Below, one piece after another: positions 21,469 through 41,147 of a stretch of 64,000 nt of DNA. The DNA is taken from NCBI GenBank assembly GCA_959606905.1, contig CAUHML010000012.1:1-64000 (forward strand). Reading direction: 5' to 3'. Source of the stretch: an uncultured Bacteroides sp. Its GTDB lineage: Bacteria > Bacteroidota > Bacteroidia > Bacteroidales > Bacteroidaceae. The notes beneath the pieces were generated by a model. It searched no databases, was not told the DNA's origin, and worked only from the letters and a program-made list of their open reading frames with translations. Position numbers and translations under genes: made by a program. Within the stretch, counting starts at the first letter, position 1; every line of letters begins with the position of its first letter.

Positions 21469-22704
21469 TTATTCTGTCCGTTTGCAGGCATTCGCCAGGA
21501 AAAACTCATTCAATGCATCTTCGTAATTTCCGTGAATCAGAATATGATGATTGCCCAATGGATTCTTCAGGAAATACTCGGCGGGAGTATTCATACGGAT
21601 ACGTACCTGTGTACGGCACATATTGATATAATTCGTGTTTTCGGATAATGTTCCCGTGGACAAGTAATATTCATCCAGACATTCGCCGCCACATTTAATA
21701 ATAGTCACGTCTCCTGTTGGAAGTAAGCCTTGGATAGCAATACCTTTTTCTGTCTCGAAGTGGTTGCGGATAATGTATCTTTCCGTTTGTTTAAGGCCTA
21801 TGGTACAGTGAGCTAATATAAGCTCGTTGGTGCGGGAATTAATCATGGAAGGATTCGCCATGAATCCGTCTTTTCCGGTTAATGACTTCACGGCCAGCAA
21901 AGTAAATATCGACTGAAGATCCCCTTCACAACCTGCCATTATGCCATCGTCATTCAGCAAAGATAATGCCAGACAACCGGTAGTGTCGATTTGCTCAATC
22001 AGTTTGAAACAACTGAGTGTCAACGCCTCCAACTTTTCTTCTTCGCATACTTTCTTAATAGCCCGATATAATCGCATCGCTTTGATTAAATCTTCGGGAG
22101 TTCCTTCACGGCAAGCAAGAGCTTGTGAAGCAACGGCAGCACAGGAAGCGCCTACCTGTTCATCTGTGATTTGTTGAAAATGTTCATAAATTCGTTCCAA
22201 TGGAATGTCTATGTATTCGATACCCCAACGGCGTTTTGCCAGAAGATAGTCAACATTGCTGGCGACCAACCAGGATGAAGGTGTTCCGATAACTCCGATG
22301 CGTTTGCCGAATAAAGAACGTTGTGCCCGGAAATTATTATAGAGTATATGTACACGTTGTATGATTGCCGGTAATTCACCGTGAAGAATTTCGCTTTTCA
22401 TTCCTCTTCCGCGTAACCATGTAGATATCTCCAGAGCGGCTGCAAGTGAGTTTTGCATACCGTCGGCCAGTAAAATGGCAGGGCGGGGAAGTCGTTCGAA
22501 ATGTTGGATGACCAGTCTTTCTACTCCGCCGGTAGCGATAAAAATAATCTTGAAATCATCACTCGTCAACTTGTCCATATCCTGATAATCGACAAGCTTG
22601 ACAGTATAATATTTTTCGAGTTCGCTTAAAATCGCTTCATGCGAACTGCGCAGCGTGGCTTGTTTATGAAGTAGTGACGCAAATGAGATAAGGTGTATGG
22701 TCAT
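21469..22704 (-). CDS. L-fucose/L-arabinose isomerase-like protein
   Basis: The 411-residue cytoplasmic protein has the fold and motifs of the fucose/arabinose isomerase family: GCEGDLQSIFTLLAVKSL with the metal-ligand acids at about residues 255-275, NPSMI, LAHCTIGL with a conserved His, and a late HHILIHGN. The first part is the Rossmann-like N-terminal domains (KRIGVIGTPSSWLV at about 133-146). It is shorter than FucI (about 590) and AraA (about 500), so it may act on another sugar. It is paired with the PL8 lyase, which might suggest work on a sugar released from a glycosaminoglycan or similar polymer, but that is inference. Confidence 0.72.
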   Translation of the reverse strand: MTIHLISFASLLHKQATLRSSHEAILSELEKYYTVKLVDYQDMDKLTSDDFKIIFIATGGVERLVIQHFERLPRPAILLADGMQNSLAAALEISTWLRGRGMKSEILHGELPAIIQRVHILYNNFRAQRSLFGKRIGVIGTPSSWLVASNVDYLLAKRRWGIEYIDIPLERIYEHFQQITDEQVGASCAAVASQALACREGTPEDLIKAMRLYRAIKKVCEEEKLEALTLSCFKLIEQIDTTGCLALSLLNDDGIMAGCEGDLQSIFTLLAVKSLTGKDGFMANPSMINSRTNELILAHCTIGLKQTERYIIRNHFETEKGIAIQGLLPTGDVTIIKCGGECLDEYYLSTGTLSENTNYINMCRTQVRIRMNTPAEYFLKNPLGNHHILIHGNYEDALNEFFLANACKRTE

Positions 22705-25364: not shown

Positions 25365-26537
25365 TTATCTTCTCATAAAATCACCTTTCCCTCGGAAAAG
25401 GCGGCATAGCTTGAAATTAAGAGATTGTATCGGTTGGAGAATATCGAATATGGGCAATGAGAAATAATATTTTCTACCTCCCCCCATTTCTTTGGCTGTC
25501 CGGTTAATCACAATAGCTTGCGTTATGTAACGAAGCAGCCATATCAATAATGCAATACCTGCTACCAGCCAATGAAAGTTGAGTATGCCGAATACGATAC
25601 CTGCCATACAGGCGACATAGAATAACAGGCGGGAAAATGTTTCGAATCCCGACAGGTAACGTTGTGCTCCACGGTAGAAGCGTGCGGTAGCCATATAACT
25701 AATTTTTTCTTCCTTCCAGTCTTTGTAGCGATAGACGGGCTGTATACGCATCGTAGCGTTGAAGTCAGTTTCTACGCGCGTATTCGTTTTGGTTACTATT
25801 TGATTAATGAACAAGTCATCTTCTCCGCGTTGCAGGTTCAGATATTTGGAATATCCTTTTTGTTTGAAGAATAATTCTTTACGGTAAGCCATGTTACGAC
25901 CGATACCCATATAGGGGTTTCCGGCCAAGGCGAACCCCAGATAACGTAAAGACTGAAATAATGTATCGAATGCGATACGTTTGTGTAACCAGCCTTTGAT
26001 ACGGTCGTATCCGCTGTACCCCAATACGATTTGCGTTTGCGAAGTGAAGTTGCGCGCCATAAGTTTCAGCCATTGGTTACTTGCAGGCATACAGTTGGTT
26101 TCCGTAAATACAAGCCAGTCGTGCTTGCTGGCTTTGATACCTAATGTCAGAGCTAGTTTCTTGTGGCTGATATAGCGGGCGCTGTCCGGTGTAAAACTAT
26201 GGTAGAGATGAGGATATTTTTCTTCCATGTATCCCAGCACATCTTCTGTTTCATCAGTGGAAGCGTCATTGATAACAATGACTTCGAACTGCGGGTAATC
26301 TTGTTCCAGAATAGCAGGCAGAATTTTACGCAGGTTATCAGCTTCATTGCGTGCACAAAGAATGACGGAAAGTGGAGGCAATTCCCGTGAGAAGTGGGTT
26401 TCCTCTTTGCGTACAGTCTTATTGCGAACGTGTATCCGATTGTACAAACCGAAATAGTAAATAAGCTGAATGATAAAAAGAATACCTGCCGCCGATAAAA
26501 GAATCAGTTCGGCAGTATTGAATGTAAATGCTTCCAT
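25365..26537 (-). CDS. Membrane-bound family 2 glycosyltransferase
   Basis: The 390-residue protein has one N-terminal membrane helix (about 10-28), a GT2 catalytic domain (LSVILCARNEADNL, VIVINDASTDET, FTETNCMP, and RGEDDLFINQ as the late acidic motif) and two or three C-terminal membrane helices (about 300-345). It would transfer a sugar from a nucleotide donor at the cytoplasmic face of the inner membrane. Acceptor unknown. It has its own promoter box at 26565-26572 and is convergent with the LolC/E-like gene. Confidence 0.85.
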   Translation of the reverse strand: MEAFTFNTAELILLSAAGILFIIQLIYYFGLYNRIHVRNKTVRKEETHFSRELPPLSVILCARNEADNLRKILPAILEQDYPQFEVIVINDASTDETEDVLGYMEEKYPHLYHSFTPDSARYISHKKLALTLGIKASKHDWLVFTETNCMPASNQWLKLMARNFTSQTQIVLGYSGYDRIKGWLHKRIAFDTLFQSLRYLGFALAGNPYMGIGRNMAYRKELFFKQKGYSKYLNLQRGEDDLFINQIVTKTNTRVETDFNATMRIQPVYRYKDWKEEKISYMATARFYRGAQRYLSGFETFSRLLFYVACMAGIVFGILNFHWLVAGIALLIWLLRYITQAIVINRTAKEMGGGRKYYFSLPIFDILQPIQSLNFKLCRLFRGKGDFMRR

Positions 26538-26564
26538 TGAATTTAAGTGTCGTTTTTACGCCCG

Positions 26565-26572
26565 CAAAAGTA
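26565..26572 (-). promoter_or_regulatory. Promoter -7 box of the glycosyltransferase gene
   Basis: TACTTTTG on the minus strand matches TAnnTTTG, 28 bases before the start at 26537. Confidence 0.6.
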
Positions 26573-26593
26573 CGCATTTTTTCGATAGTTCCC

Positions 26594-27619
26594 TCATCTT
26601 GAAGGAAGGTTATTTCGCAAATCCAGATATTCTTTCTTGAACATATTCACGAAAAGGAAGAATAGCGAGAGTAATAACGGCCCGAAGATGACTCCCATAA
26701 ATCCGAATAACGGCAAACCGATGACAACTCCGAAAATAGTGATGAGCGGATGTGTGTCCGCCATTTTCTTTTGAAGGATAAATCGGATCAGGTTGTCGGA
26801 TTGTGACACGACGATGGCTCCGTATGCAGCGAGCCCGATTGCATGGAACCAGTCTCCGCTAATAGCCAGATAAGCGGCTACGGGAAACCATACCAATGCT
26901 GTACCTACCATTGGAATAATAGTTGCGAAGCAGGTGAGGAAACCTAATAATAGTATATTGGGTGCTCCGAAAATAAGATAGCCTATCATGGCGACGCCTC
27001 CCTGAATGATAGCCAGCAGAGGAATGCCGATAGCATTGGAACGTACAATCATGTTAATCTCACGAATGACTTCCTGCGTATTTGCCTCATTAAAAGGAAG
27101 AATGTCGTTGACGTATGCTTCCATTTTTTTTCCTCCTATCAGCATAAAGTAAAGCACGAATATCATGACGAATAGATTGACTGCAAGGCTGCTGGCGCCT
27201 TCCATAATTATCTGTCCGATACGAGGGAGGATAGATACGATGAATGATAGCGTATCTTTTCCCAATACATCATAACCGGTCTTTTCTTTAATAAATTCTG
27301 CTACTTGCTGAATGGGTTCGATAAAGGTTTGCGGAGCCAGATTTATATCCTGAAGTTTGTTTACCACTAGCCAGATTATTAATCCCAGCGGAACAAGAAA
27401 CACCATAATGGTTTCTGCCGTAATCAGTAATGCACTGATGCTGCGTTTCATTTTCCGCTTTTCTGTCAGATAATTCATGTGTGTGCGTACAAGTATATAC
27501 ATAGTTAATGCTCCCAGTAATCCTCCCAAAAAAGGAGTGATTTGCCGGAAGATGATAACTCCCATAAATAGAATAATGACAATGAGGGAATATTTCCAGT
27601 ATTGTTCTTTGATGCTCAT
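26594..27619 (-). CDS. AI-2E family transporter
   Basis: The 341-residue integral membrane protein has about seven to eight hydrophobic segments, with two close helices at the start (about 12-45), one at 62-85, a cytoplasmic/periplasmic loop, then four or five helices from 150 to 325, including IPMVGTALVWFPVAAYLAI. This fits the AI-2E (PF01594, UPF0118) family, whose members export autoinducer-2 or act as ion/proton antiporters. The actual substrate is unknown. It lies 59 bp after the sensor kinase on the same strand. Confidence 0.85.
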   Translation of the reverse strand: MSIKEQYWKYSLIVIILFMGVIIFRQITPFLGGLLGALTMYILVRTHMNYLTEKRKMKRSISALLITAETIMVFLVPLGLIIWLVVNKLQDINLAPQTFIEPIQQVAEFIKEKTGYDVLGKDTLSFIVSILPRIGQIIMEGASSLAVNLFVMIFVLYFMLIGGKKMEAYVNDILPFNEANTQEVIREINMIVRSNAIGIPLLAIIQGGVAMIGYLIFGAPNILLLGFLTCFATIIPMVGTALVWFPVAAYLAISGDWFHAIGLAAYGAIVVSQSDNLIRFILQKKMADTHPLITIFGVVIGLPLFGFMGVIFGPLLLSLFFLFVNMFKKEYLDLRNNLPSR

Positions 27620-27678: not shown

Positions 27679-28932
27679 TTATAATGGCATATCAATATGA
27701 AAAATTGTTTTGCCGGGATTGCTTTCCTGAATGGTGAGATGCCCGTCGTGAAGGCGGATAATTTGTTTGCATAGGCTTAATCCGATACCGCTGCCTTCTG
27801 ATTTGGTGGTAAAAAAAGGAATAAATATCTTTTCCTGTAATTCAGGCGGAATACCCGGGCCGTTGTCCGCAATGTCAATAGATATGTGTTCGTCTTGTTG
27901 TGCATGGATGCTGATTCTGCCTTTTTCTTTTCCTTCCAGTGCTTGCATGGAGTTTTTCAGAAGGTTGAGCAGGACTTGGGAGAGTTGGTTCTCGTCACCT
28001 TTCATATAAATCGTTTTAGGTTCGCAGGTCAGTGTGAAGATGATATTGCTTTCTTTGAAGTCGCCGGATAAGAGTTCCCGGAGATTTTGCAGGGTTGCCG
28101 TAAGTGAGAAAAGTTTCTTTTCGGGTTTTGGCAGGTAGGAGAGGTGACGGAAGGATTCGGTAAATTGCAATAAACGTTCGCTTTGTGCTTGAATGATGCG
28201 AAGTCCGCGAACTGCTTTTTCGTTGATGTCCGGATAGGTGGACAGTGTTTGTGACAGGGAGATAATGGGAGCAATGGTGTTCATTATTTCATGAGTGAGC
28301 ACGTGGCTTAGTTTGTTCCACGATTCACTTTCTTTGTCGCTAAGCTCGTCACCGATATCCTTGATAGACAAGAGAGTTATTGTTTCATCTTGTAGTTTCA
28401 TCCGGCTTTGTGAAAGACTGAGATGCTCCTTTTTGCCTTTTTCTTGCAGTAAGGATTCCAGTTGTCGGTATCGGGTTAATTGCTGGCAGTCTAATAAGGA
28501 AAGGGCAGTGCTGTTTGCTATGATTATTTTTCCGGTAGAATCCCATGCTAATACACCGCTGGGCACTTCTTCCAAGAGTGAGCGGTAGAAGTGTTCCTGT
28601 TTGGAATATTCTGATTGAGTTTTGGCGAGCAGGAAATTGATGCGGTTGAGAGAGCGGTTCAGTTTTTCCTGTTCTTTACTAACGTTTTGTTCGGGAAAGT
28701 AAAGCATATTATCCTTGTCTTCTATGGCATCGAAAAAGACACGCAACTTTTGGTTGAATGAATTTAGTTTATTTACCAGCCTGCTGATTTGGAAGAGGGA
28801 ACAGGTAATTAGTAATGTGCCTATTACAAATCCGCGTTGTGAGATGATAAGCCAGGCGCCTGTTCCCGAGGTGACGAGGATAAGTATGACGTGTAGTAGT
28901 ATAACCCAATAGATGTGTCGGCTGAATATCAT
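27679..28932 (-). CDS. NtrY/AtoS-type sensor histidine kinase
   Basis: The 417-residue protein has two close membrane segments at the N-terminus (about 8-47), almost no periplasmic part, a PAS-like domain (about 115-195, EEVPSGVLAWDSTGKIIIAN), the phosphoacceptor helix with His in VLTHEIMNTIAPIISLSQ, and an ATPase domain (LLNLLKNSMQAL, DNGPGIPPE, GSGIGLSLCKQI). Because the sensor region is intramembrane or cytoplasmic, it may sense membrane state or a lipid-soluble compound. It begins 5 bp after the NtrC-type regulator gene and is surely its partner. Confidence 0.92.
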   Translation of the reverse strand: MIFSRHIYWVILLHVILILVTSGTGAWLIISQRGFVIGTLLITCSLFQISRLVNKLNSFNQKLRVFFDAIEDKDNMLYFPEQNVSKEQEKLNRSLNRINFLLAKTQSEYSKQEHFYRSLLEEVPSGVLAWDSTGKIIIANSTALSLLDCQQLTRYRQLESLLQEKGKKEHLSLSQSRMKLQDETITLLSIKDIGDELSDKESESWNKLSHVLTHEIMNTIAPIISLSQTLSTYPDINEKAVRGLRIIQAQSERLLQFTESFRHLSYLPKPEKKLFSLTATLQNLRELLSGDFKESNIIFTLTCEPKTIYMKGDENQLSQVLLNLLKNSMQALEGKEKGRISIHAQQDEHISIDIADNGPGIPPELQEKIFIPFFTTKSEGSGIGLSLCKQIIRLHDGHLTIQESNPGKTIFHIDMPL

Positions 28933-28937
28933 GCTGT

Positions 28938-30296
28938 TCAGAGTTTGAAACGTTTTAGTTTGTTATAGAGTGTCTGACGGCTGATTCCCAATTGTTCGGC
29001 GGCGGCAGTCAGGTTGCCATTATTTTGCAGAATGGCTGTTTCAATGGCTTGCCTTTCCACTTCTTCCAAATTGGGGACAGTGCTGGTGGTTTGCGGCTTC
29101 CAGGTTTGTTTTACCAAAATGTCTTTGGGGCGTATCACGTTGCCTTCACACAAGATAATGGCTTTCTCGATAGCGTGCTGCAGTTCCCGGATATTGCCCG
29201 GCCAGTGGTAAGAGCGTAGTTTCTCTATTGTTTGCTCATGCATTCGCATTTCCGGGCGTTGGTATTTCGAAGCGAAACGGTGGAGAAAGGTTTCGACGAA
29301 CAGGAGTATGTCGTCTCCTCGTTCTCGTAATGGAGGAATTTCAAGGTGGATAGTGTTGATACGGTAGAATAAATCTTCGCGGAATAATCCTTGTTTCACC
29401 ATTTCCGGGATGTCTTTATTGGTGGCGGAAATGAGTCGTATATCAACGGGGACGACTTTATTACTTCCGATTCGGGTGATATTCCTGTTTTGTAGTACAG
29501 TCAGTAATTTGGCTTGTAGTGCAAGGGGAAGATTTCCAATCTCATCCATAAAAAGCGAACTGCCGCTGGCAGCTTCGAATTTTCCCGGACGGCTTTCGTA
29601 AGCGTCCGTAAAAGCTCCGCGCTCGTGACCGAAAAGCTCGCTCTCAAAAAGGGATTCACTGATAGCTCCCATGTCAATACTTGACATGGGACGAGTATTG
29701 CGTGGAGACAGGCGGTGTATTTCTCTGGCCAGCATTTCCTTTCCGGTCCCGTTTTCTCCGGTTATTAGAATATTGGCGTCGGTCCCGGCTACTTTATTGA
29801 CTACCTTTATTAATTGTAGCATGGCGGGAGAATGCCCTATCAGCATTTCAGGTTTGTTCGGATTGCCGGATCCTACGATTGAGTTTTTTGATTTTGAGGA
29901 ACTTTTCCTGTTCGATTTATTATTGTATGCTTCCTTTATTTTCTGAACCAGTGTCCGGTTATCCCAAGGTTTGAGAAGAAAGTCGGCAGCTCCGTTCTTC
30001 AAAGCTTTTACGGCTAGTTCCACATCTCCGTAAGCAGTTAACATTACCACAGGAAGTGTGGGGCGGATTTCGTGAATATGTTTCAGCCAGTATAGTCCTT
30101 CGTTGCCGTTATTGATACCAGCCGAAAAATTCATATCGAGAATTACGATATCAATGGAAGTGGTAGTGAGCAGTGTTGTTATTTGATTAGGATTGGCAGC
30201 TGTGCGGACTGTACTGAATTCATTTTCGAGTAAAAGTTCCAGCGAAGCCAACACACTTTTATTATCATCTACTATTAAAATAGTTCCGGTTTCCAT
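28938..30296 (-). CDS. NtrC-family sigma-54-dependent response regulator
   Basis: The 452-residue protein has a receiver domain with phosphoacceptor Asp54 (VILDMNF) and Lys in LLKPWDN, an AAA+ domain with Walker A GENGTGKE, the sigma-54 contact loop GAFTDA (GAFTGA in most relatives), Walker B SLFMDEIG and the arginine-finger region REDLFYRIN, and a C-terminal Fis-type helix-turn-helix (LTAAAEQLGISRQTLYNKLK). Phosphorylated, it should form a hexamer that opens sigma-54 promoters. The only sigma-54 promoter visible nearby is that of the divergent exporter operon, preceded by three matching dyads, so that operon is its likely direct target. Confidence 0.95.
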   Translation of the reverse strand: METGTILIVDDNKSVLASLELLLENEFSTVRTAANPNQITTLLTTTSIDIVILDMNFSAGINNGNEGLYWLKHIHEIRPTLPVVMLTAYGDVELAVKALKNGAADFLLKPWDNRTLVQKIKEAYNNKSNRKSSSKSKNSIVGSGNPNKPEMLIGHSPAMLQLIKVVNKVAGTDANILITGENGTGKEMLAREIHRLSPRNTRPMSSIDMGAISESLFESELFGHERGAFTDAYESRPGKFEAASGSSLFMDEIGNLPLALQAKLLTVLQNRNITRIGSNKVVPVDIRLISATNKDIPEMVKQGLFREDLFYRINTIHLEIPPLRERGDDILLFVETFLHRFASKYQRPEMRMHEQTIEKLRSYHWPGNIRELQHAIEKAIILCEGNVIRPKDILVKQTWKPQTTSTVPNLEEVERQAIETAILQNNGNLTAAAEQLGISRQTLYNKLKRFKL

Positions 30297-30387
30297 ATAT
30301 GTAAGATTGGGGGGATCTGCCTGGGTTGAACGATTCTTTAAGTTTTTGGGTAAAGATATTCGTTTTTACTTTTCCCTGCAAGAGAGT

Positions 30388-30402
30388 GTCCAATAATTAG
30401 AC
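30388..30402. promoter_or_regulatory. Upstream activator dyad 1
   Basis: GTCCAATAATTAGAC is an imperfect 15-bp palindrome of the same pattern as two others nearer the sigma-54 promoter. It lies about 90 bp from the regulator start and may serve autoregulation. Confidence 0.65.
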
Positions 30403-30523
30403 GTTTTATGATACATTTCCTGAAACATGACTTTATTCTATGTTTTGTTTAAGTAATATTTATAGCCTGAACGTTGAATAATGGCTGTTTGCACGCAGGT
30501 CATGGTGGCTTTTTATTGATAAC

Positions 30524-30538
30524 GTCCAATTTTTAGAC
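30524..30538. promoter_or_regulatory. Upstream activator dyad 2
   Basis: GTCCAATTTTTAGAC fits the pattern GTCYAAnnnTTRGAC. Its centre is about 112 bp before the predicted transcription start of the exporter operon. Confidence 0.75.
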
Positions 30539-30546
30539 GTTATAGT

Positions 30547-30561
30547 GTGTAATAATTGGAC
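30547..30561. promoter_or_regulatory. Upstream activator dyad 3
   Basis: GTGTAATAATTGGAC has the same dyad with one arm base changed. Its centre is 23 bp from that of dyad 2, about two helical turns, suited to paired dimers of an NtrC-type protein. Confidence 0.7.
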
Positions 30562-30616
30562 GGGAACGATAAAATAATGTATGTCATCTATCTTGTAATC
30601 AGTGGTTTAAGTATTG

Positions 30617-30631
30617 TGGCATTATGTTTGC
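30617..30631 (+). promoter_or_regulatory. Sigma-54 promoter of the exporter operon
   Basis: TGGCATTATGTTTGC has the -24 GG and -12 GC separated by exactly 10 nt and matches the TGGCAY-N5-TTGC consensus. The transcript would begin near 30643, about 31 nt before the first ATG. Confidence 0.82.
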
Positions 30632-30673
30632 TTTTTTAATTCATATAGAACACAATTGCATATATACTGAAGA

Positions 30674-31975
30674 ATGAGGAACATTTTCTTTTTATTGTTT
30701 TTATTGCCCGTGATTACGTATGCTCAATCTGCAATGAGTTTGGATGAATGTATCCGTTTGGCATGGAAACAGAATCCTTCTATACGGAATAGTGCCATTA
30801 ACATAAAGGAAGCACGAACGGATTATGCTTCCGCTATCGGTACATTTCTTCCCCGCATAGTAGCCAACGCAGAAACAGGAAAGCGTTTCGGGCGTTCGAT
30901 AGACCCGGATACCAATGGTTATACAGAAAAGACTTTTGAAGAAGGAACGATAGGTCTTGATATGACGTTGTCTTTGTTTGAAGGTTTTTCACGTATCAAT
31001 CAGGTTCGTTTTCGGAAAATAAATCGGGAACGCAGCAAGTGGGAACTGAAAGACAGGCAGAATGAACTCGCCTATCAAGTGACGGATGCTTACTACAAAC
31101 TGGTTTTGGAAAGAAAACTCTTGAATTTGGCTTTGGAGCAAAGCCGGTTGAGCGAACGATACCTGAAACAAACCGAGACATTTGTGGAACTGGGCTTGAA
31201 ATCCGTTTCCGACTTGCAAGAGGTAAAAGCCCGCAGGGAAGGGGATATATATCGTTACCAATCCCGTGCTAATAGCTGTCGGTTGTCATTACTGCATCTG
31301 GAACAGTTGATGAACTTTCAGTCGGGTGATACACTTGTCATTCAGGATACGATTGTCGAATTGAATAAACTCCCGTTACTTTCACTCCCCTCTACGGAAA
31401 CATTGTATAGACAATCGTTGGAAGTACTCCCTGCCATGCGTATGATTAGCTTAAAGCAGAAAGCTGCCCGCAAAGAATATGCAATGGCGGGCGGAGCTTT
31501 TTCTCCTTCTGTTTATGCCCGCCTTACGGTAGGTTCTAATTTCTACAACACTGCATTTTCCGCCAGGCAATTGCGGGATAATATAGGAAAATATATCGGT
31601 ATCGGTATCTCTTTCCCTTTGTTGAGCGGTTTTGAACGTTTTACGAATCAAAGGAAGTTGAAATTGAACTTGTATCGCCTGAAGAATGAAGAGGAATTGG
31701 AGAAGCAACAGCTATATACTGAAATTGAGCAAACTCTTCTTTCCCTACGTGCCAGCTATACGGAACATCAACAGGTATTGCAGCAATTGAGCGCGGAAAC
31801 TCTGGTCTTGAAAGAATCCGAACGAAAGTGGGAAGAAGGGCTTATCTCTGTCTTTCAGTTAATGGAAGCCCGTAATCGTTTTATTTCCGCCAAAGCAGAA
31901 CTGGTTCGTGTGCGCTTGCAGGTAGAAATGATGATGAAACTGGAGAAATATTACCGGGAGGGAACTTTCTTATAA
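30674..31975 (+). CDS. TolC-family outer-membrane efflux protein
   Basis: The 433-residue protein has a cleavable signal peptide (ending near TYAQS) and the two-fold repeated long-helix/strand pattern of TolC channels (SLDECIRLAWKQNPSIRNS at the start of the first repeat; YRQSLEVLPAMRMISLKQKA at the start of the second). It forms the outer-membrane and periplasmic tunnel of a tripartite exporter. It is the first gene of the sigma-54-controlled operon with the fusion protein, two permeases and an ATPase. Confidence 0.93.
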   Translation: MRNIFFLLFLLPVITYAQSAMSLDECIRLAWKQNPSIRNSAINIKEARTDYASAIGTFLPRIVANAETGKRFGRSIDPDTNGYTEKTFEEGTIGLDMTLSLFEGFSRINQVRFRKINRERSKWELKDRQNELAYQVTDAYYKLVLERKLLNLALEQSRLSERYLKQTETFVELGLKSVSDLQEVKARREGDIYRYQSRANSCRLSLLHLEQLMNFQSGDTLVIQDTIVELNKLPLLSLPSTETLYRQSLEVLPAMRMISLKQKAARKEYAMAGGAFSPSVYARLTVGSNFYNTAFSARQLRDNIGKYIGIGISFPLLSGFERFTNQRKLKLNLYRLKNEEELEKQQLYTEIEQTLLSLRASYTEHQQVLQQLSAETLVLKESERKWEEGLISVFQLMEARNRFISAKAELVRVRLQVEMMMKLEKYYREGTFL

Positions 31976-32060: not shown

Positions 32061-33308
32061 ATGGATACACCTATTGAACGTAAACCCGGCATTACCCGTA
32101 AACATCTATATGTAATAGGTGGTATAGCCTTTGTTATTGCCGTTGTTTTATATTTCATATTCAGAGACACTACCTCTTCCATGATTGTGGAGAAAGAACG
32201 TCTGACGATTGTTACCGTTAACCGTGGTGAGTTTAATGACTATATTCGTGTCATTGGTCAGGTAATGCCTAATCGTATTATTTATATGGATGCCGTGGAA
32301 GGTGGACGTGTGGAAGAACGTCTAAAAGAAGAAGGTGCTATGGTGAAGGCAGGCGACGTGATTTTGCGTCTCAGTAATCCGTTACTAAATATTGGTATTA
32401 TGCAGAGCGAAGCGGATCTGGCTTATCAGGAGAATGAACTTCGTAATACCCGTATTAGCATGGAGCAGGAACGCTTGCGTTTAAAACAAGAGCGTATCGG
32501 GCTAAATAAAGATCGGCTGGTGAAACAGCGCCGTTATGAGCAATACAGTCGCCTGATAAAAGAGCAACTTATTGCAGAAGAAGATTATCGACTTGCCAAA
32601 GAGGAGTATGATGCGGCTAAAGAACAGTTGGATGTCATTGACGAGCGTATTCGTCAGGATAATATTTTCCGTGAAAGTCAGGTAAACAGCTTGGACGAGA
32701 ACATACGTAATATGAAACAGAGTCTCGCGCTGGTACGCGAACGAATTGAGAACCTGAAGGTGAAAGCTCCTATTGACGGGCAGGTAGGTAATCTTGATGC
32801 ACAGATAGGACAATCAATAGCTGCGGGCGAGCACATTGGTCAGATCATCACTTCTGACCTGAAAGTACAAGCGCAGATTGACGAACATTACGTGGAGCGT
32901 GTTGTACCCGGATTGCCGGCTGACTTTACCCGTGACGGTGTCAGTTATAAACTGGAAGTGACGAAGCCGTATCCGGAAGTAAAAGAAGGGCAGTTTCGTA
33001 CCGATTTGCAGTTTACAGCCGGACGACCGGAGAATATACGTGCAGGGCAGACCTATCATATCAATCTACAATTGGGTGACCCTGCACAGGCTATTTTGGT
33101 GCCGCGTGGCGGATTTTTCCAAATAAGCGGTGGACGATGGATGTATGTTGTGGATGAAAGTGGTAAATTTGCTATTCGTCAGCCTATCCGCATCGGACGA
33201 CAAAATCCGCAGTACTATGAGGTTACCGAAGGATTAAAACCTGGTGATCGGGTGATTGTATCCGGATATGAACTGTTTGGCGATAACGAGAAACTGATAC
33301 TGAAATAA
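32061..33308 (+). CDS. HlyD/MacA-type periplasmic adaptor (membrane fusion protein)
   Basis: The 415-residue protein has one N-terminal membrane anchor (about 18-38), a lipoyl-like half motif (GQVMPNRIIYMDAVEGGRVE), a long coiled-coil hairpin (about 115-235), the second lipoyl half (VKAPIDGQVGNLDAQIGQSI), and beta-barrel and membrane-proximal domains to the end (VIVSGYELFGDNEKLILK). It links the inner-membrane ABC permease to the TolC channel. It starts 85 bp after the TolC gene and the first permease follows after 9 bp. Confidence 0.93.
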   Translation: MDTPIERKPGITRKHLYVIGGIAFVIAVVLYFIFRDTTSSMIVEKERLTIVTVNRGEFNDYIRVIGQVMPNRIIYMDAVEGGRVEERLKEEGAMVKAGDVILRLSNPLLNIGIMQSEADLAYQENELRNTRISMEQERLRLKQERIGLNKDRLVKQRRYEQYSRLIKEQLIAEEDYRLAKEEYDAAKEQLDVIDERIRQDNIFRESQVNSLDENIRNMKQSLALVRERIENLKVKAPIDGQVGNLDAQIGQSIAAGEHIGQIITSDLKVQAQIDEHYVERVVPGLPADFTRDGVSYKLEVTKPYPEVKEGQFRTDLQFTAGRPENIRAGQTYHINLQLGDPAQAILVPRGGFFQISGGRWMYVVDESGKFAIRQPIRIGRQNPQYYEVTEGLKPGDRVIVSGYELFGDNEKLILK

Positions 33309-33317
33309 GTCTATGAT

Positions 33318-35726
33318 ATGATAAATTACTTTTCACAAGTGATACGTAGTCAGCGGGTTAAAAAATCTCTGACACTGATAAATATAACGGGATTGTCTGT
33401 TTGTATTGCAACAGCATTGCTTATCATACTTTACGTATGGTCGGAGTTAAGCTACGATTCATTCCACAATACCGAACGTGTATATCGTGTTGAAAGCCGG
33501 TTGTATGAAGGCAAGACGCTGACAGATAACTGGGCGACTACAGCTTACGGCCATGCACCTGCAATGGCTCGTGAAATTGCAGGCATTGAGAAGTATGTCC
33601 GTGTAACAGCACAAGACCGCGAACAAGTGGTGAATTACTTCGACAGGAGATTTGCCGAAGCACATTATTGCTACACCGAACCTGCTTTTTTTGAGATATT
33701 TAATTTCCCGATAATTAGAGGAGATAAGACCGGGCAACTGGTGCGTCCTAATACGGTGGTACTGACCGAAAGTGCGGCAAATCGTTATTTTGATGAAGAA
33801 GACCCGATAGGGAAGGTGCTGACTTTCAGTACGCCTTCATCGCAGCAAAACTTTGAAGTTACCGGCGTGATAGCAGATATGCCTGTTCGTTCCCATCTGC
33901 AATATGATTTTCTACTTTCATATAGTACGATTCCCAAAGAGCGACAGGACATTTGGTACATTCACGGAGTTTATACCTATGTCCGCCTGATGTCCGGAAA
34001 ATGTCCGGAAGAGATTGAAGAGGCTTTTCTCAATATATCCGATAAGTACAAAACTGATGCCTTGAGACATAAGACTTGGGCGGTAGAACTGATACCGCTG
34101 AAAGACATTCATCTCACTCCACAAAAAGCTTATGAGAAAGAAGTGAAAGGGAGTCGGACTGCGGTTCTTATACTATTGGTGATGTCCGTTGCCCTGCTAC
34201 TGATAGGTTGGGCTAATGCCTTGAATCTGACCGTGGCACGTTTCTTGGAACGCGGACGTGAGTTCGGGTTGCGTAAGGCTTTTGGTGCTTCGCGCCGTCA
34301 GATTATTATCCAGGGACTTCTTGAATCAGGTTTCATGAATCTGTTGGCTACGCTGATAGCTCTTGGTTGGCTGGAACTTCTTTTACCCCTTGTTTATCGC
34401 TGGGCAGGGCAAAGCTTTGGGACGGATATACTTATGTTGCCTGCTTTCTGGGGAATTGTAGCCGGAGTGGTTGTTATTGGTACGTTTGTTGTAGGCTTCT
34501 ATCCTTCTTGGCTGATGGTTACTATACGTCCGTCGGAAATTATGAGGGGGAAACTGTTACACGGTAAACGTGGTAACCGGATAAGGAAAGTGCTGATTGT
34601 GGTTCAGTTTCTCGCTTCTTTTGTTCTGATTACTGGCACGTTCACAGTGATTCGGCAAGTGTGTTATATGCAAAGTGAGGCTTCCGTCGATTCTCATTCA
34701 CGTATGTTAGTCATTAAGTACCCCTCTTTCACCGAGGGATTGGCACTACGTCTGGAAAGTTTCACCAAGCGTCTGAAGCAACGGGCAGATGTAAGCCACG
34801 TAACCGTTTCAGGAGCTGTTCCCGGGGTGGAGGTAGCCAATTATTTTACCAATCGTCCTTATGGAAGTGACCCTTCGCAAGTGAAACTGATACAGATGTT
34901 TGCCGTAGATTATGATTATCTATCTGCCTATATGCCCGCTATGATTTGTGGGCGGTACTTCTCTGAGGACTTTGGCGGTGACCTCAACCGGATAGTGCTC
35001 AACGAGGAAGCAGTCAGGTTATTAGGTTATGAGTCGCCCGAAGCCGCATTGGGACAGCAGGTTAAAATGGAGGTGGTAGACGAACCGCTCGAAATTATCG
35101 GAGTGGTGAAAAACTATCACCAGCAATCGCTTTCCGTGGCTTACAAACCTATTATCTTCTTTATGAAAGAGCGAGTACCATTTATTGCAACACCTTATAT
35201 TTCAGTCCGCTTGACAGGCGAAGGAGAAGATAGTGCTTTGACGGAGATCGAGCAGATGTATCATGAATATTTTCCGACTTCTTTATTTTCTTATTTCTTT
35301 TTGAGTGATTTGAATACTTTCCTTTATAAATCAGACCGTAATTTCGGTTGGATATTTGCCAGTGCTTCTTTAATTGCCATATTTGTGGCATGTCTCGGTT
35401 TGTGGATTGTAACATTGTTTTCAACCTTATCGCGCTTGAAAGAAGTGGGTATCCGCAAGGTGCTCGGTGCAAATAAAAGCAGCCTGTTTTTTATCTTGAC
35501 CAAGGAGCTGATGTTGCTCACTATATTGGCATCTGCAATCGGTATACCCGTATCAGCAGTGTTAATGAATGGCTGGTTGGAGACGTATGCTTTCCATATT
35601 TCGCTACCTTGGTGGATATATGCAGTCGTTTTTGCGCTGTTGATGCTGATTGCGTTCCTTACTGTTTTTCAACAAGTGTGGCGCATTATCTGCTTGAAAC
35701 CGATGAGTATTTTAAAATATGAATAA
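33318..35726 (+). CDS. MacB/FtsX-like ABC permease, first copy
   Basis: The 802-residue protein has two repeats of the FtsX/MacB unit: a helix at about 20-42, a large periplasmic (MacB-PCD) domain, helices at about 285-305, 335-360 and 375-400, then a second half with a helix near 430, another periplasmic domain, and three final helices (about 675-700, 715-745, 760-785), ending MSILKYE. Such permeases do not pump across the inner membrane; they drive substrates from the periplasm through TolC. It is a paralogue of the permease two genes downstream (shared EEDPIGK and TEPAFF/AEPSFF motifs). Confidence 0.9.
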   Translation: MINYFSQVIRSQRVKKSLTLINITGLSVCIATALLIILYVWSELSYDSFHNTERVYRVESRLYEGKTLTDNWATTAYGHAPAMAREIAGIEKYVRVTAQDREQVVNYFDRRFAEAHYCYTEPAFFEIFNFPIIRGDKTGQLVRPNTVVLTESAANRYFDEEDPIGKVLTFSTPSSQQNFEVTGVIADMPVRSHLQYDFLLSYSTIPKERQDIWYIHGVYTYVRLMSGKCPEEIEEAFLNISDKYKTDALRHKTWAVELIPLKDIHLTPQKAYEKEVKGSRTAVLILLVMSVALLLIGWANALNLTVARFLERGREFGLRKAFGASRRQIIIQGLLESGFMNLLATLIALGWLELLLPLVYRWAGQSFGTDILMLPAFWGIVAGVVVIGTFVVGFYPSWLMVTIRPSEIMRGKLLHGKRGNRIRKVLIVVQFLASFVLITGTFTVIRQVCYMQSEASVDSHSRMLVIKYPSFTEGLALRLESFTKRLKQRADVSHVTVSGAVPGVEVANYFTNRPYGSDPSQVKLIQMFAVDYDYLSAYMPAMICGRYFSEDFGGDLNRIVLNEEAVRLLGYESPEAALGQQVKMEVVDEPLEIIGVVKNYHQQSLSVAYKPIIFFMKERVPFIATPYISVRLTGEGEDSALTEIEQMYHEYFPTSLFSYFFLSDLNTFLYKSDRNFGWIFASASLIAIFVACLGLWIVTLFSTLSRLKEVGIRKVLGANKSSLFFILTKELMLLTILASAIGIPVSAVLMNGWLETYAFHISLPWWIYAVVFALLMLIAFLTVFQQVWRIICLKPMSILKYE

Positions 35727-35747: not shown

Positions 35748-36464
35748 ATGATTAAGACTGAAAAACTGACAAAACTCTTCGCAACCGAAGAAGTGCAGAC
35801 AAAGGCATTGAACGAAGTCACTTTACAAGTGGAACAAGGGGAGTTTGTTGCTATAATGGGCCCTTCGGGATGCGGTAAGTCAACACTGCTGAATATTTTG
35901 GGTACACTCGATTCTCCAACTTCCGGCTCTTATTTCTTTGAAGGAAAACAGGTGGATAAAATGAATGAGAACCAATTGACTGCCCTCAGGAAAGGTAATC
36001 TCGGCTTTATCTTTCAGAGTTTCAACTTGATTGACGAGCTGACCGTATGTGAGAATGTAGAATTACCCCTTATCTATATAGGCGTCAAAGCCAATGAACG
36101 TAAAGAAAGAGTAAAGAAAGTACTCGAGAAAGTAAACCTGCTGCATCGTGCCAACCATTATCCACAGCAATTGTCCGGTGGACAGCAACAGCGCGTAGCT
36201 ATTGCTCGTGCCGTAGTGACGGACTGTAAATTGCTTCTCGCTGACGAACCTACCGGAAATTTGGATTCGGTGAACGGTATAGAAGTAATGGAACTATTGA
36301 GTGAACTGAATGCTCAGGGAACTACTATCATCATCGTTACCCACTCTCAACGGGATGCAATGTACGCACACCGCGTCATTCAATTATTAGACGGACAAAT
36401 CGTAGCCGAAAACGTCAACCGCCCGCTGGGAAAAAATATGTCAGCTAAAAATGAAACTGTATGA
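35748..36464 (+). CDS. MacB/LolD-type ABC transporter ATPase
   Basis: The 238-residue protein has Walker [11 protein letters not shown], the Q-loop [14 protein letters not shown], signature [14 protein letters not shown], Walker [13 protein letters not shown] and the switch His in IVTHSQRDA. The [14 protein letters not shown] stretch is typical of the LolD/MacB group. It must power both flanking permeases. Its stop overlaps the start of the next permease by 4 bases (ATGA). Confidence 0.96.
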
Positions 36465-38881
36465 TAGGAAATTACTGGAATAGTGCTTGGCGGAATCTGA
36501 TGAAACGGAAAAGGTTCAGTTTCATTAATATATTCGGACTGGCGATTGGTATGGCATCGGCACTGCTGATTCTTACCTACGTGACTTTTGAATTCAGCTT
36601 TGATAAAATGCACACAAAGTATGACCATATCTACCGTGTGCAAAGTACGTTTCACGAAGGGGAAGTGCTGACCGACTACTGGGCAAGCAGCTCCTTCGGA
36701 TATGGTTCGGCAATGAAAGAGAACCTTGCCGGAATAGAGGATTATACCCGAATCGGCTCCCTACTCCAGCCGGAACAAATAGTGAAATACGGTGAACTGA
36801 CCTTGCGGGAGAATCAGATAGCGTATGCCGAACCCAGCTTTTTTCGCCTTTTTGATTTCGAACTTTTGAAAGGCGATAAGAAAACCTGTCTCTCCATGCC
36901 GGGGCAAGTGGTAATCACCGAACGCATTGCTAGTAAATATTTCAAGGACGAAGACCCTATCGGGAAGATATTCATCTTTACCGGCGCATACGACAAGATA
37001 TCGTGTGAAGTGACCGGAGTGATGAAAGAAATGCCTTCCAACTCGCATATACATTATAGTTTTCTGATTTCGTATAAATCTCTGCCTAAATATATGCAGG
37101 AATATTGGTACAAACACGAGGCTTATACCTACGTCCTGCTTGACTCTCCCGAAAGGAAAGCGGAAATAGAGAGAGAATTTCCTGTAATGGCGGAAAAGTA
37201 CAAGACGGATGAAGCCTTGAAAAACAAGACATGGGGAGTCTTTTTAATCCCTCTGGCAGATATACACCTCACTCCGCAGGTAGGATACGAAGCGGAGACG
37301 AAAGGAAACCGTTCTTCTATGATTGCCTTGATTTTTGCTGCTATTGCTATTTTGGCTATTGCCTGGATAAACTATATAAACCTCACCGTAGCCCGTTCAA
37401 TGGAGCGTGCCAAAGAAGTGGGAGTTAGGCGGGTAGTGGGAGCTTTCCGCAAGCAGTTGATTCATCAATTTTTGTTTGAAGCATTAGTGATGAACCTGAT
37501 AGCTTTTGTACTCGCCGTTGGCTTGATAGAATTGGTTCTTCCGTACTTTAATCAATTGGTAGGCCGTACCGTTACCTTCTCCGTTTGGCTGATAGATTAT
37601 TGGTGGATTTTATTGATTCTTGTTTTCATCATCGGGATATTCCTTTCTGGATATTATCCGGCATTGGCTTTGCTGAATCGGAAACCAATTATGTTGTTGA
37701 AGGGGAAATTCTTGCATAGTAAATCCGGAGAACGGACACGGAAAGTTTTGGTTATCATTCAATATATGGCTTCAATGATATTGTTGTGCGGCACATTGAT
37801 TGTCTTTGCACAGTTGAGCTTTATGCGCAGCCAGTCTTTGGGAGTTAAGACCAATCAGACATTGGTGGTCAAGTTTCCTGGGCATACCGAGGGACTGAAT
37901 ACGAAACTGGAAGCTATGAAAAAAACGATAGCACGTCTTCCGTTGGTATATCAAGTCACTTTCTCCGGCGCTGTGCCGGGCGAGGAAGTAGCGACTTTCC
38001 TTTCCAACCGCCGTACCAATGATGCTCTGAAGCAGAATCGCCTGTATGAGATGCTTGCCTGTGACCCCGATTATGTGGATGCCTATGGATTGCAAGTTGT
38101 GGCCGGAAGAAATTTCTCGGAAGACTATGGAGATGATGTAGACAAACTGGTGATTAACGAAACGGCTGTGCGTAACCTGGGCTTTACATCTAATGATGAG
38201 GCTATAGGGGAGTTGGTGAACGTTGAATGTACTGATGCCCCGATGCAGATTATTGGAGTAGTGAAAGATTATCACCAACAGGCATTGAGCAAGAATTATA
38301 CACCTATCATGTTGATTCATAAAGATAAGATTGCCTGGTTACCACAACGTTATATCTCTATCGTAATGACTTCCGGCGATCCTCGTGAATTGGTATCACA
38401 GGTGCATGAGATTTGGAATCAATATTTTGCGGATTCCAGTTTCGATTACTTTTTCCTCGACCAATTCTTCGACCACCAGTATCGTCAGGATGAGGTGTTT
38501 GGTGTAATGATTGGCGCTTTTACCGGTTTGGCTATTTTCATTTCCTGTTTGGGACTTTGGATACTGGTCATGTTTTCATGTTCCACACGTACCAAAGAAA
38601 TGGGGATACGTAAAGTTCTCGGGGCTTCCCGTTGGACACTCTTCTATCAGTTGGTTAAGGGATTCTTTCTGTTAATTCTGATAGCAGTTGTTATTGCTTT
38701 GCCACTAGCTTGGTTTAGTATGAATGCCTGGTTGAGCCATTATGCTTTCCGCACAGATTTGAAAGCATGGTTCTTTATTATGCCTGTATTGCTAATGTTG
38801 TTTATCTCATTTATAACAGTAGCTTTCCAGACCATAAAGATAATAATGAGCAAACCTGCCCGCTCTTTACGATATGAATAA
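36461..38881 (+). CDS. MacB/FtsX-like ABC permease, second copy
   Basis: The 806-residue protein has the same double FtsX layout as the copy upstream, with matching helices and periplasmic domains (SFINIFGLAIGMASALLIL at the start, GIRKVLGASRWTLFYQLV before the last two helices, ending SLRYE). Two different permeases on either side of one ATPase suggest a heterodimer. Small peptides, lipids or antimicrobial compounds are typical substrates of the class; nothing here decides. A weak hairpin (38900-38917) follows the stop. Confidence 0.92.
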   Translation: MIGNYWNSAWRNLMKRKRFSFINIFGLAIGMASALLILTYVTFEFSFDKMHTKYDHIYRVQSTFHEGEVLTDYWASSSFGYGSAMKENLAGIEDYTRIGSLLQPEQIVKYGELTLRENQIAYAEPSFFRLFDFELLKGDKKTCLSMPGQVVITERIASKYFKDEDPIGKIFIFTGAYDKISCEVTGVMKEMPSNSHIHYSFLISYKSLPKYMQEYWYKHEAYTYVLLDSPERKAEIEREFPVMAEKYKTDEALKNKTWGVFLIPLADIHLTPQVGYEAETKGNRSSMIALIFAAIAILAIAWINYINLTVARSMERAKEVGVRRVVGAFRKQLIHQFLFEALVMNLIAFVLAVGLIELVLPYFNQLVGRTVTFSVWLIDYWWILLILVFIIGIFLSGYYPALALLNRKPIMLLKGKFLHSKSGERTRKVLVIIQYMASMILLCGTLIVFAQLSFMRSQSLGVKTNQTLVVKFPGHTEGLNTKLEAMKKTIARLPLVYQVTFSGAVPGEEVATFLSNRRTNDALKQNRLYEMLACDPDYVDAYGLQVVAGRNFSEDYGDDVDKLVINETAVRNLGFTSNDEAIGELVNVECTDAPMQIIGVVKDYHQQALSKNYTPIMLIHKDKIAWLPQRYISIVMTSGDPRELVSQVHEIWNQYFADSSFDYFFLDQFFDHQYRQDEVFGVMIGAFTGLAIFISCLGLWILVMFSCSTRTKEMGIRKVLGASRWTLFYQLVKGFFLLILIAVVIALPLAWFSMNAWLSHYAFRTDLKAWFFIMPVLLMLFISFITVAFQTIKIIMSKPARSLRYE

Positions 38882-39298: not shown

Positions 39299-40051
39299 AT
39301 GAAGATAGAAATCAATCAAACAACGTTAATTGATCAGGTAGAAGACAGCCTGCTTACCTATTTCAAAAAGAATGATTTAGGACGCGGGGATTCTATTCCT
39401 AATGAGAATAGTCTGGCTGCAGAACTGGGAGTTGCAAGGAGTGTTGTCAGAGAGGCACTGAGCCGTCTGAAGATGATGGGGTTGATTCACGCACGTCCTC
39501 GTAAGGGGATGGTTCTGACAGAGCCTTCCATTTTGGGAGGAATGAAAAGAGTGATAGATCCCCGTGTTTTAAGTGAAGAAACAATTTTGGATTTGTTGGA
39601 TTTCAGAATTGCACTTGAAATAGGAATATCAACTGATATTTTCCGTAAGATAACTCCTAAAGATATTGAGGAACTGAGCGAAATCGTAAAAATGGGAATC
39701 GTTTTTGAAAATAACGAATACGCGTTAATTAGTGAATCGGCTTTTCATACGAAACTATATAAAATAACCGGGAATAAAATCATATCTGAATTTCAGGAAA
39801 TCATTCATCCTATACTTGTCTATGTGAAAGAGAAATTCAAAGATTATTTGAAACCTATAAATATAGAAATGAGCAAAAGCGGTCGGATAGCTACTCATGC
39901 TGATTTGCTGGACTTTATCAAGAAAGGGGACGAGAAGGGTTACCGGGATGCTATCGAAAGACATTTTGAGGTCTATAAAATTTTCAAGGTAAACCGAAGT
40001 CAGGAATTGATGGCTGAGAAGGCAGAAAGTGAAAAGGTAGAAGGTATATGA
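39299..40051 (+). CDS. FadR-subfamily GntR transcriptional regulator of the sialic acid locus
   Basis: The 250-residue protein has an N-terminal winged helix (about 12-80, SLAAELGVARSVVREALSRL then GLIHARPRKGMVL) and an all-helical FCD ligand domain (about 95-235) with metal-site histidines in FHTKLY, THADLLD and RHFEVY. NanR of E. coli is of this subfamily and responds to sialic acid, so it is likely to repress or control the following genes with N-acetylneuraminate as ligand. The mutarotase gene overlaps its stop by 4 bases. A perfect palindrome lies in front of it. Confidence 0.9.
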   Translation: MKIEINQTTLIDQVEDSLLTYFKKNDLGRGDSIPNENSLAAELGVARSVVREALSRLKMMGLIHARPRKGMVLTEPSILGGMKRVIDPRVLSEETILDLLDFRIALEIGISTDIFRKITPKDIEELSEIVKMGIVFENNEYALISESAFHTKLYKITGNKIISEFQEIIHPILVYVKEKFKDYLKPINIEMSKSGRIATHADLLDFIKKGDEKGYRDAIERHFEVYKIFKVNRSQELMAEKAESEKVEGI

Positions 40052-41121: not shown

Positions 41122-41147
41122 AATATAATAATCTAATTAAATGCATT

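Follow-up and report, generated by a model that had tools for sequence, protein, structure and literature searches.

How is an exporter operon controlled when it lies back to back with the genes of a two-component system, and from which promoter is it read? We addressed this question in a 64-kb stretch of DNA from an uncultured Bacteroides sp. (here denoted the window). Open reading frames and Pfam matches place the two-component genes on the minus strand and five exporter genes on the plus strand. The former encode a sensor histidine kinase of 417 amino acids (27679..28932; HATPase_c, 2.8e-27; H-box at His214) and an NtrC-type response regulator of 452 amino acids (28938..30296; Response_reg, Sigma54_activat at 8.5e-67, and HTH_8). 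The latter encode a TolC-type outer-membrane protein of 433 amino acids (30674..31975; OEP, 5e-51), an HlyD-type periplasmic adaptor of 415 (32061..33308; HlyD_3, with TIGR01730 above cut-off), MacB_PCD-FtsX permease A of 802 (33318..35726; MacB_PCD 7.5e-31, FtsX 3.1e-24), a stand-alone ABC ATPase of 238 (35748..36464; ABC_tran 2.4e-37; best NCBIfam model DarD, below cut-off) and MacB_PCD-FtsX permease B of 806 (36461..38881; MacB_PCD 1.3e-34, FtsX 3.6e-26). The gap between regulator and exporter is 377 bp long, exactly the length given in the original prediction, which had also described a kinase with almost no periplasmic part. Hydropathy bears this out, as the kinase N-terminus has two hydrophobic stretches with nearly no loop separating them; a PAS match stays below threshold (20.2 bits, cut-off 22.6). 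The adjacent hydrophobic stretches are compatible with sensing within or through the membrane, and our guess is that the signal is membrane-derived.

On the same strand as the kinase and following it (25365-27619) are a gene for an AI-2E-family transporter, identified by Pfam, and a further ORF that we take to be glycosyltransferase-like; the two may be co-transcribed with the two-component genes. The transporter gene keeps its place after the kinase in five genomes (G001, G010, G013, G022 and G015). Downstream of the exporter (39299-42059) lies a gene for a GntR/FCD-type regulator (Pfam) followed by two more genes, presumably for a kelch-like and a dihydrodipicolinate-synthase-like protein, so that this group resembles a sialic-acid (nan) cluster.

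The genes for the OEP, the HlyD adaptor, the MacB_PCD-FtsX permease and the ABC ATPase are adjacent on one strand, which by its gene content makes the system a tripartite ABC exporter of the MacB_PCD/FtsX class. A TolC-type protein, an HlyD-type adaptor, MacB_PCD-FtsX permeases and an ABC ATPase are shared with MacAB-TolC and DarBCDE, whereas the window exporter differs from both in its separate ATPase protein and two permeases. In MacB, ATPase and permease are fused in a single chain; here they are separate ORFs (33318-35726, 35748-36464 and 36461-38881), and PRK10535 scores below cut-off. Measured against the NCBIfam equivalog cut-offs for the darobactin exporter DarBCDE, the scores are 284.7 of 375 for DarD, 174.5 of 450 for DarC, and 132.3 and 84.6 of 700 for DarB. 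Membership in MacB or Dar was rejected, every matching NCBIfam MacA, MacB or Dar equivalog model being below cut-off; for this reason, and because ATPase and permease are not fused, we call the exporter MacB-like rather than MacB. An amphipathic or peptide-like substrate is a guess. At two related loci (L046 and L047, in G013 and G022), the ORF lists show no permease A between adaptor and ATPase, so the exporter there appears to have one permease, not two.

The original prediction had placed three dyads of one pattern and a promoter with GG-N10-GC spacing in the regulator-exporter gap, and coordinates and letters of all three dyads proved exact. The 15-bp consensus is GTCYAAT-N-ATTRGAC, with 14 scored positions. 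The distal dyad GTCCAATAATTAGAC (30388..30402; the dyads are given without strand) matches at 14/14, lies six bases upstream of the regulator's -33 box and is a putative autoregulatory operator. The upstream enhancer dyad GTCCAATTTTTAGAC (30524..30538) and the proximal enhancer dyad GTGTAATAATTGGAC (30547..30561), each 13/14, are 23 bp apart, as had been claimed, with centres near -112 and -89 relative to an exporter transcription start that we infer at about 30643. The start of the proximal dyad is 70 bp from the T of TGGCA in TGGCATTATGTTTGCT (30617..30632, plus strand), the predicted sigma-54 -24/-12 promoter of the exporter operon. This element agrees with TGGCAY-N5-TTGCW, a pattern in which GG and GC are 10 bp apart, at all 11 of 11 specified positions; GG occupies 30618-30619 and GC, ten bases on, 30630-30631. 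The rpoN gene is present in 5 of 5 genomes searched. Another 11/11 match in the window (21956-21971, minus strand) sits inside a coding gene with no dyad nearby in the window and was taken as chance.

Matches to the dyad at 13 or more of the 14 positions occur at these three places only in the whole window, and 18 of 20 Markov-simulated sequences of 64 kb had none and the other 2 had one. In the nearest genome compared (G001, 4.57 Mb, with which the window has 78% of sampled words in common), the exact consensus is found at three places, namely the distal dyad of this same locus and a pair at a paralogous locus. One-mismatch dyads are found at four, two of which are this locus's proximal dyads. 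The other two were set aside: one (3423576) is intergenic, with no TGGCA element within 140 bp shown, and one (1414783) is within an ORF. With up to two mismatches the dyad is found at 25 places in G001 and a reversed-pattern control at 88; the motif as such is therefore not enriched genome-wide, and what counts is the location of its best copies, not their number.

Conservation was followed in relatives, defined as the best 80 of 573 loci from a scan of named genomes. The layout of the locus in G001 is near-identical to that of the window. G022 has a regulator with 89% identity and a gap about 50 bp shorter, yet neither the order nor the spacing of its three dyads and promoter has changed. 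The eight closest named long-flank loci (L099-L106) all combine a -24/-12 element with a dyad close to the regulator and one or more dyads upstream of the promoter (8/8); in none were the dyads or the GG-N10-GC lost while the genes were kept. The proposal that the exporter operon is the probable direct target thus holds in the parts that such a comparison can address. In more distant orthologs (e.g. L110, L111 and L113), simple scans give degenerate sites or none.

We counted as clade A 17 loci (L099-L113, L115 and L116), not all of them independent because L101/L102 and L107/L108 are same-species pairs; L114, at 57% identity and with a 234-bp flank, was not counted. By tblastn, a divergent MacB-like permease is encoded at 13 of the 14 clade-A loci for which 8 kb or more of upstream sequence is available, L107, L109 and L112 having short flanks and standing outside this count; at L110 (Parabacteroides massiliensis) no exporter permease was detected within 10 kb upstream. 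Over all 80 loci the permease is divergent at 38, in another orientation at 2, undetected despite at least 8 kb of upstream sequence at 23 (among them L110, L122 and L172), and 17 have short flanks. Three of the 23 (L117, L120 and L165) have a divergent TolC-type match, so the permease search may have missed some. Judged from these comparisons, regulator-exporter coupling is strong in clade A and patchy or less visible outside it.

The distance between operator and promoter was examined on both strands of 178 loci and of 25 kb of the window, in a scan for dyads (at least 12/14) located 15-400 bp upstream of sigma-54-like sites (at least 10/11, and at least 400 bp from the locus end); only near-identical copies were removed. 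The scan gave 85 dyad matches at 143 distinct sigma-54-like sites, 38 of them 69-71 bp and 28 of them 90-93 bp from the T of TGGCA. These two narrow bins together hold 66/85 matches and leave 19/85 for all other distances, and 30 shuffled-palindrome controls gave 0 matches at 68-72 bp. The set includes loci with regulators only 51-56% identical to that of the window, and it extends to genera such as Hallella and Alistipes. A scan made independently of the regulator in 60 Bacteroides genomes (TTAGAC or TTGGAC, a gap of 40-70 bp, then TGGCAY-N5-YTGC) gave a similar picture. TTAGAC matched 34 times in 31 of the 60 genomes, and 31 of the 34 matches had a total length of 75-78 out of 31 possible lengths; TTGGAC matched 28 times in 21 genomes, 14 of them with a total length of 75-78 out of the same number of possible lengths. 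It is the clustering of lengths, not the number of matches, that discriminates, because reversed-pattern controls reach 23 against 34 and 15 against 28, respectively. Order-wide pattern searches, in which 24 and 27 of 247 genomes match, mostly in distant families and with mostly scattered lengths (5 of 25 rows of one search are 77 long), are weak evidence on which the spacing claim does not draw. An alignment of 38 promoters, described below, is uninformative on spacing because its members were chosen for a dyad at 69-71 bp; its columns -55 to -40 carry at most 0.2 bit each. Spacer letters thus appear to drift, while spacer length, by the dyad scan, hardly changes. Reported enhancer distances elsewhere are broader than this Bacteroidales frame: most sites are at 100-250 bp in Clostridiales (PMC6615313), and in Desulfovibrio some are less than 100 nt and four more than 300 bp away (PMC4641369).

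These distances bear on a different account of the locus, in which most exporter transcripts would come from a sigmaABfr promoter or from read-through, with the dyads as repressor sites. Operators near promoters can indeed repress, but this account offers no ready explanation for the constant distance, in many loci, between dyads and a perfect -24/-12 element, and the gene next to dyads and promoter encodes a sigma-54-type AAA+ regulator. We consider this account very improbable.

Activation through sigma-54 also fits the class of the regulator. PF00072, PF00158 and PF02954 all score above cut-off, as in a bEBP of the response-regulator type, and in a seven-sequence alignment a receiver is followed by an AAA+ sigma-54 interaction domain and a Fis-type HTH ending SRQTLYNKLKRF. 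The GAFTDA loop and Fis-type DNA-binding end ascribed to this protein were both recovered by Pfam and alignment. Its loop reads GAFTDA where the class has GAFTGA; one study lists GAFTDA as a variant compatible with activation (PMC4641369), and another calls GAFTGA invariant (PMC12316311). Among the best 80 of 573 relatives the loop is GAFTDA in 56, GSFTDA in 21, and GSFTNA, GAYTDA and GAFTGA in one each. G001 has 13 PF00158 matches, eight of them strong: the four strong ones encoded within ~5 kb of FtsX-type permease genes have GAFTDA or GSFTDA, and the remaining four GAFTGA or GSFTGA. A FastTree phylogeny of 110 proteins, with one GAFTGA protein as the root and one of the two L205 proteins included, groups 106 regulators, nearly all of the D type, with a support of 0.997.

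Two elements of the gap were absent from the original prediction, a regulator promoter (30351-30381; see below) and an IHF-like element, AATCAGTGGTTTA, at 30597..30609 on the plus strand (about -46 to -34). This putative bend site lies between enhancer and -24 box and matches the IHF consensus WATCARNNNNTTR exactly, as in an IHF-assisted promoter; HU/IHF-family genes (PF00216) are present in 3 of 3 genomes searched. When the 38 promoters, all less than 85% identical, were aligned on TGGCA, a conserved block emerged: TTGATAATCAA-N4-TTA, which spans columns -25 to -8 and includes the IHF consensus. Exact matches to the consensus occur within 55 bp upstream in 13/38 promoters (Markov control: mean 0.41, maximum 3 in 200). 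Eight are plus-strand matches at -20/-19 and 5 minus-strand matches at -32/-31; the other 25/38 dyad promoters have no exact match. In a held-out test, a matrix made from the 38 promoters was run over 33 other, dyad-less TGGCAY sites upstream of long ORFs; these were unfiltered, several resemble chance matches, and two (L007 and L008) are clade-A relatives with degenerate dyads. The mean score was highest exactly at the trained position (-1.19), the next value (-3.53) was one base off, and the background over positions had a mean of -9.08 (SD 1.70). Individually, 9/33 sites ranked the trained position first of 108, and sites of clade C (see below) mostly peaked one base off.

Within the same sigma-54 circuit, the element at 30597-30609 could instead serve RNA polymerase as an AT-rich upstream contact or be recognised by some other factor; the spacing would then be fixed because activator and polymerase touch across a short, stiff spacer. 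The conserved core TTGATAATCAA comes close to a palindrome, a symmetry not required of an IHF site, the element lies very close to the -24 box, and exact IHF matches are limited to the 13 promoters, with the 5 on the opposite strand among them. On the other hand, the conserved columns -20 to -15 and -9/-8 follow WATCAR-N4-TTR, and published IHF sites in sigma-54 promoters are similarly placed, for instance at -43 in D. vulgaris orp2 (PMC3897727). A contact other than a bend site seems to us rather unlikely, though worth keeping in mind. Deletion of ihf-alpha in D. vulgaris, the native host, reportedly left orp expression unchanged (PMC3897727), so that a site of this kind need not be decisive.

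The regulator appears to have its own promoter, resembling the published sigmaABfr consensus TTTG / TAnnTTTG (PMC7366714). Its predicted -7 box is TATCTTTA (30351..30358, minus strand), and sequence comparison places the -33 box, TTGC in the window and TTTG in several orthologs, at 30378..30381 (minus strand). In 17/17 clade-A loci a dyad (at least 11/14) lies 52-91 bp from the regulator start. Its distance to the TAnnTTTA-like box is 37-38 bp in all 17, though the distance from box to ATG ranges from 15 to 54 bp, and a TTTG/TTGC-like box lies between the two in most clade-A loci displayed. A sigma-54-like GG-N10-GC, TGGACACTCTCTTGCA, overlaps the distal dyad on the regulator strand; with 8/11 positions and a weak -24 box it was rejected, the box at a fixed distance suiting a sigmaABfr promoter better. 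In G035 the gap has grown to 1.4 kb, and the distal dyad is still 59 bp from the regulator while the exporter dyad pair is still at the exporter promoter; the distal dyad therefore belongs to the regulator promoter. Its conservation relative to this promoter and not to the exporter supports the autoregulatory role that the original prediction had considered possible. Repression would be somewhat likelier than activation, because the psp and orp systems both regulate themselves negatively (PMC3709507, PMC3897727).

Paralogous regulators offer a view of which parts of this architecture vary. In G001 a third one (clade C, 47% identical) adjoins another TolC/HlyD/permease set, whose promoter carries, by hand count, GTGCGATTACGCAC and GTGCGTATTTGCAC, 21 bp apart, with the centre of the second operator about 63 bp from the T, matching the position of the proximal dyad. 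Operators of this GTGC type occur at 10/13 clade-C loci with flank and GTC-type operators at 0/13; L189, with a short flank, was left out. Clade-C recognition helices mostly read RFALYRK in place of RQTLYNK, and two of the three clade-C loci that have no GTGC operator (L198 and L199) have deviating helices. Within 3 kb of RQTLYNK-type loci, GTC-type operators were found at 36/76 and GTGC-type at 2/76, the 4 of 80 loci with less than 400 bp upstream being left out. Operator letters and recognition helix thus change in parallel between clades. At four Alistipes loci (L132, L137, L141 and L151) a TGTAAA-type palindrome is found at the same place. The -12 box also varies, with GA for GC in clade-C promoters and GT for GC in the G001 clade-B promoter.

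A test that ignores operator letters asked for palindromes alone (at least 5/7, at both places) at the 33 dyad-less sites. It found 8/33 at offsets 0 and +1, 3 at -1, 4 at +2 and 0 at -6 to -2 and +3 to +6, 25/33 sites failing; a shift of -22 bp gives 5 because it aliases with the tandem period. At a laxer 4/7 the peak is 16/33 over a background of 2-11/33. We lean, by a narrow measure, to the view that Bacteroidales exporters share a fixed sigma-54 'docking frame', in which, counted upstream from the T of TGGCA, two operators are centred at ~63 and ~85 bp and a bend site lies at 20 bp; paralogous activators with different recognition helices would fit into it through changes in the operator letters alone. 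Two clade-C loci (L083 and L194) have a second TGGCAY site upstream of another ORF, accompanied at roughly the usual spacing by GTGC-like palindromic DNA; this is perhaps an extra sigma-54 promoter under the same regulator.

Where the operator letters do not change, regulators might cross-talk: a shared GTCYAAT operator would let the window regulator and its 53%-identical clade-B paralog act on each other's exporters, making the circuit a node of a shared envelope response. The HTH of both regulators contains RQTLYNK, and the exact dyads of G001 are confined to these two loci. Against this, each regulator adjoins its own exporter, and clade A leans by eye to GTCC/TTGGAC half-sites and clade B to GTCT/TTAGAC. 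We regard such cross-talk as unlikely. At L069 (4062-5649) and similar clade-B loci, genes for a calcineurin-like phosphoesterase and a protein with no Pfam match lie between regulator and exporter. An atlas of B. thetaiotaomicron expression lists as bile-salt induced both the pair BT_0691-0692, an outer-membrane protein and a calcineurin-like phosphohydrolase, and the efflux system BT_2685-2689 (PMC10994844). The similarity of the clade-B gene to this pair is a possible clue to the signal, only a lead.

Taken together, we hold with good confidence, on comparative sequence evidence, that the MacB-like exporter is driven from a sigma-54 promoter by an NtrC-type two-component activator bound to an enhancer at a short, fixed distance, probably with the help of DNA bending, and that a third site serves autoregulation. 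The membrane-embedded histidine kinase would phosphorylate the regulator, which would bind the tandem dyads near -112 and -89, assemble there and contact the sigma-54 RNA polymerase positioned at 30617-30632. Bound at 30597-30609, a protein of the IHF/HU family would bend the short spacer and thereby bring activator and polymerase together in a defined orientation; this would account for the constant spacing. ATP hydrolysis by the AAA+ domain with its GAFTDA loop would then open the promoter and the TolC-HlyD-permease-ATPase-permease exporter would be made, while the third dyad, adjoining the sigmaABfr-type -33 box, would adjust the level of the regulator.

PspF, the activator of the E. coli psp system, is not known as a response regulator, and psp differs from the window circuit in its target genes and in the sequence of its operators. 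The exact IHF match of E. coli K-12 is 34 bp upstream of the -24 T, 14 bp further out than the 20 bp of the window, and a palindrome is, by eye, ~73 bp away as against 63 bp. The plan is nevertheless alike: PspF acts from two UAS at pspA with the help of IHF on a -24/-12 promoter, its gene is divergent with an autorepressed sigma-70 promoter, and the theme is membrane stress (PMC3709507). The orp system of D. vulgaris likewise has a GAFTDA activator, DVU2106 (PMC4641369), sigma-54, palindromic sites and a negative loop on the activator's own sigma-70 promoter, and at orp2 the activator site at -88 and the IHF site at -43 are at nearly the distances of the window (PMC3897727). It differs in its single-component regulator, in its two divergent operons, thought to act in septum placement, and in the activator site of orp1 at -131 (PMC3897727). 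Each part of the circuit is therefore already known, because psp shares the plan and orp2 nearly the distances.

For gamma-Proteobacteria, Opitutia and Bacteroidia, a 2025 computational study reports an enrichment of MacB-type permeases (COG0577) under predicted sigma-54 promoters; it terms its FtsX-family link first evidence (PMC12316311). Its Bacteroidia MacB/FtsX predictions concern the same promoter, transporter and bacterial class as the window circuit; the study uses promoter matrices, and its main text does not contain 'operator', 'IHF' or 'upstream activat' (PMC12316311). The original prediction had known of no description of this exact circuit. This stands for the circuit as a whole, in that a full-text literature search, partly aimed at comparators, gave no description of circuit or operator in titles or abstract starts among the matches listed; it does not stand for sigma-54 control of MacB-type permeases in Bacteroidia, which the 2025 study already has, without operators. 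'RpoN' was not matched in the main text of two B. thetaiotaomicron expression papers (PMC10994844, PMC12596196). The apparent novelty lies in the operator, in its place in Bacteroidales and in a frame that stays constant across paralogs whose operators differ.

To judge from that literature search, the dyad gives the first operator consensus for a Bacteroidales sigma-54 activator, and the rule of spacing and operator lets one predict, for the export pumps of gut commensals, the two-component system to which each of them responds. MacB-like exporters of this kind are, to go by their family names, plausible envelope-stress or antimicrobial-peptide pumps, and knowing their switch may therefore help to explain how these bacteria tolerate gut conditions. 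Related gut bacteria seem to retain the spacing even where the DNA code of the regulator has changed, which makes these loci a broad natural experiment on the limits of enhancer geometry. If the docking frame is true, the operator code evolves and the geometry does not.
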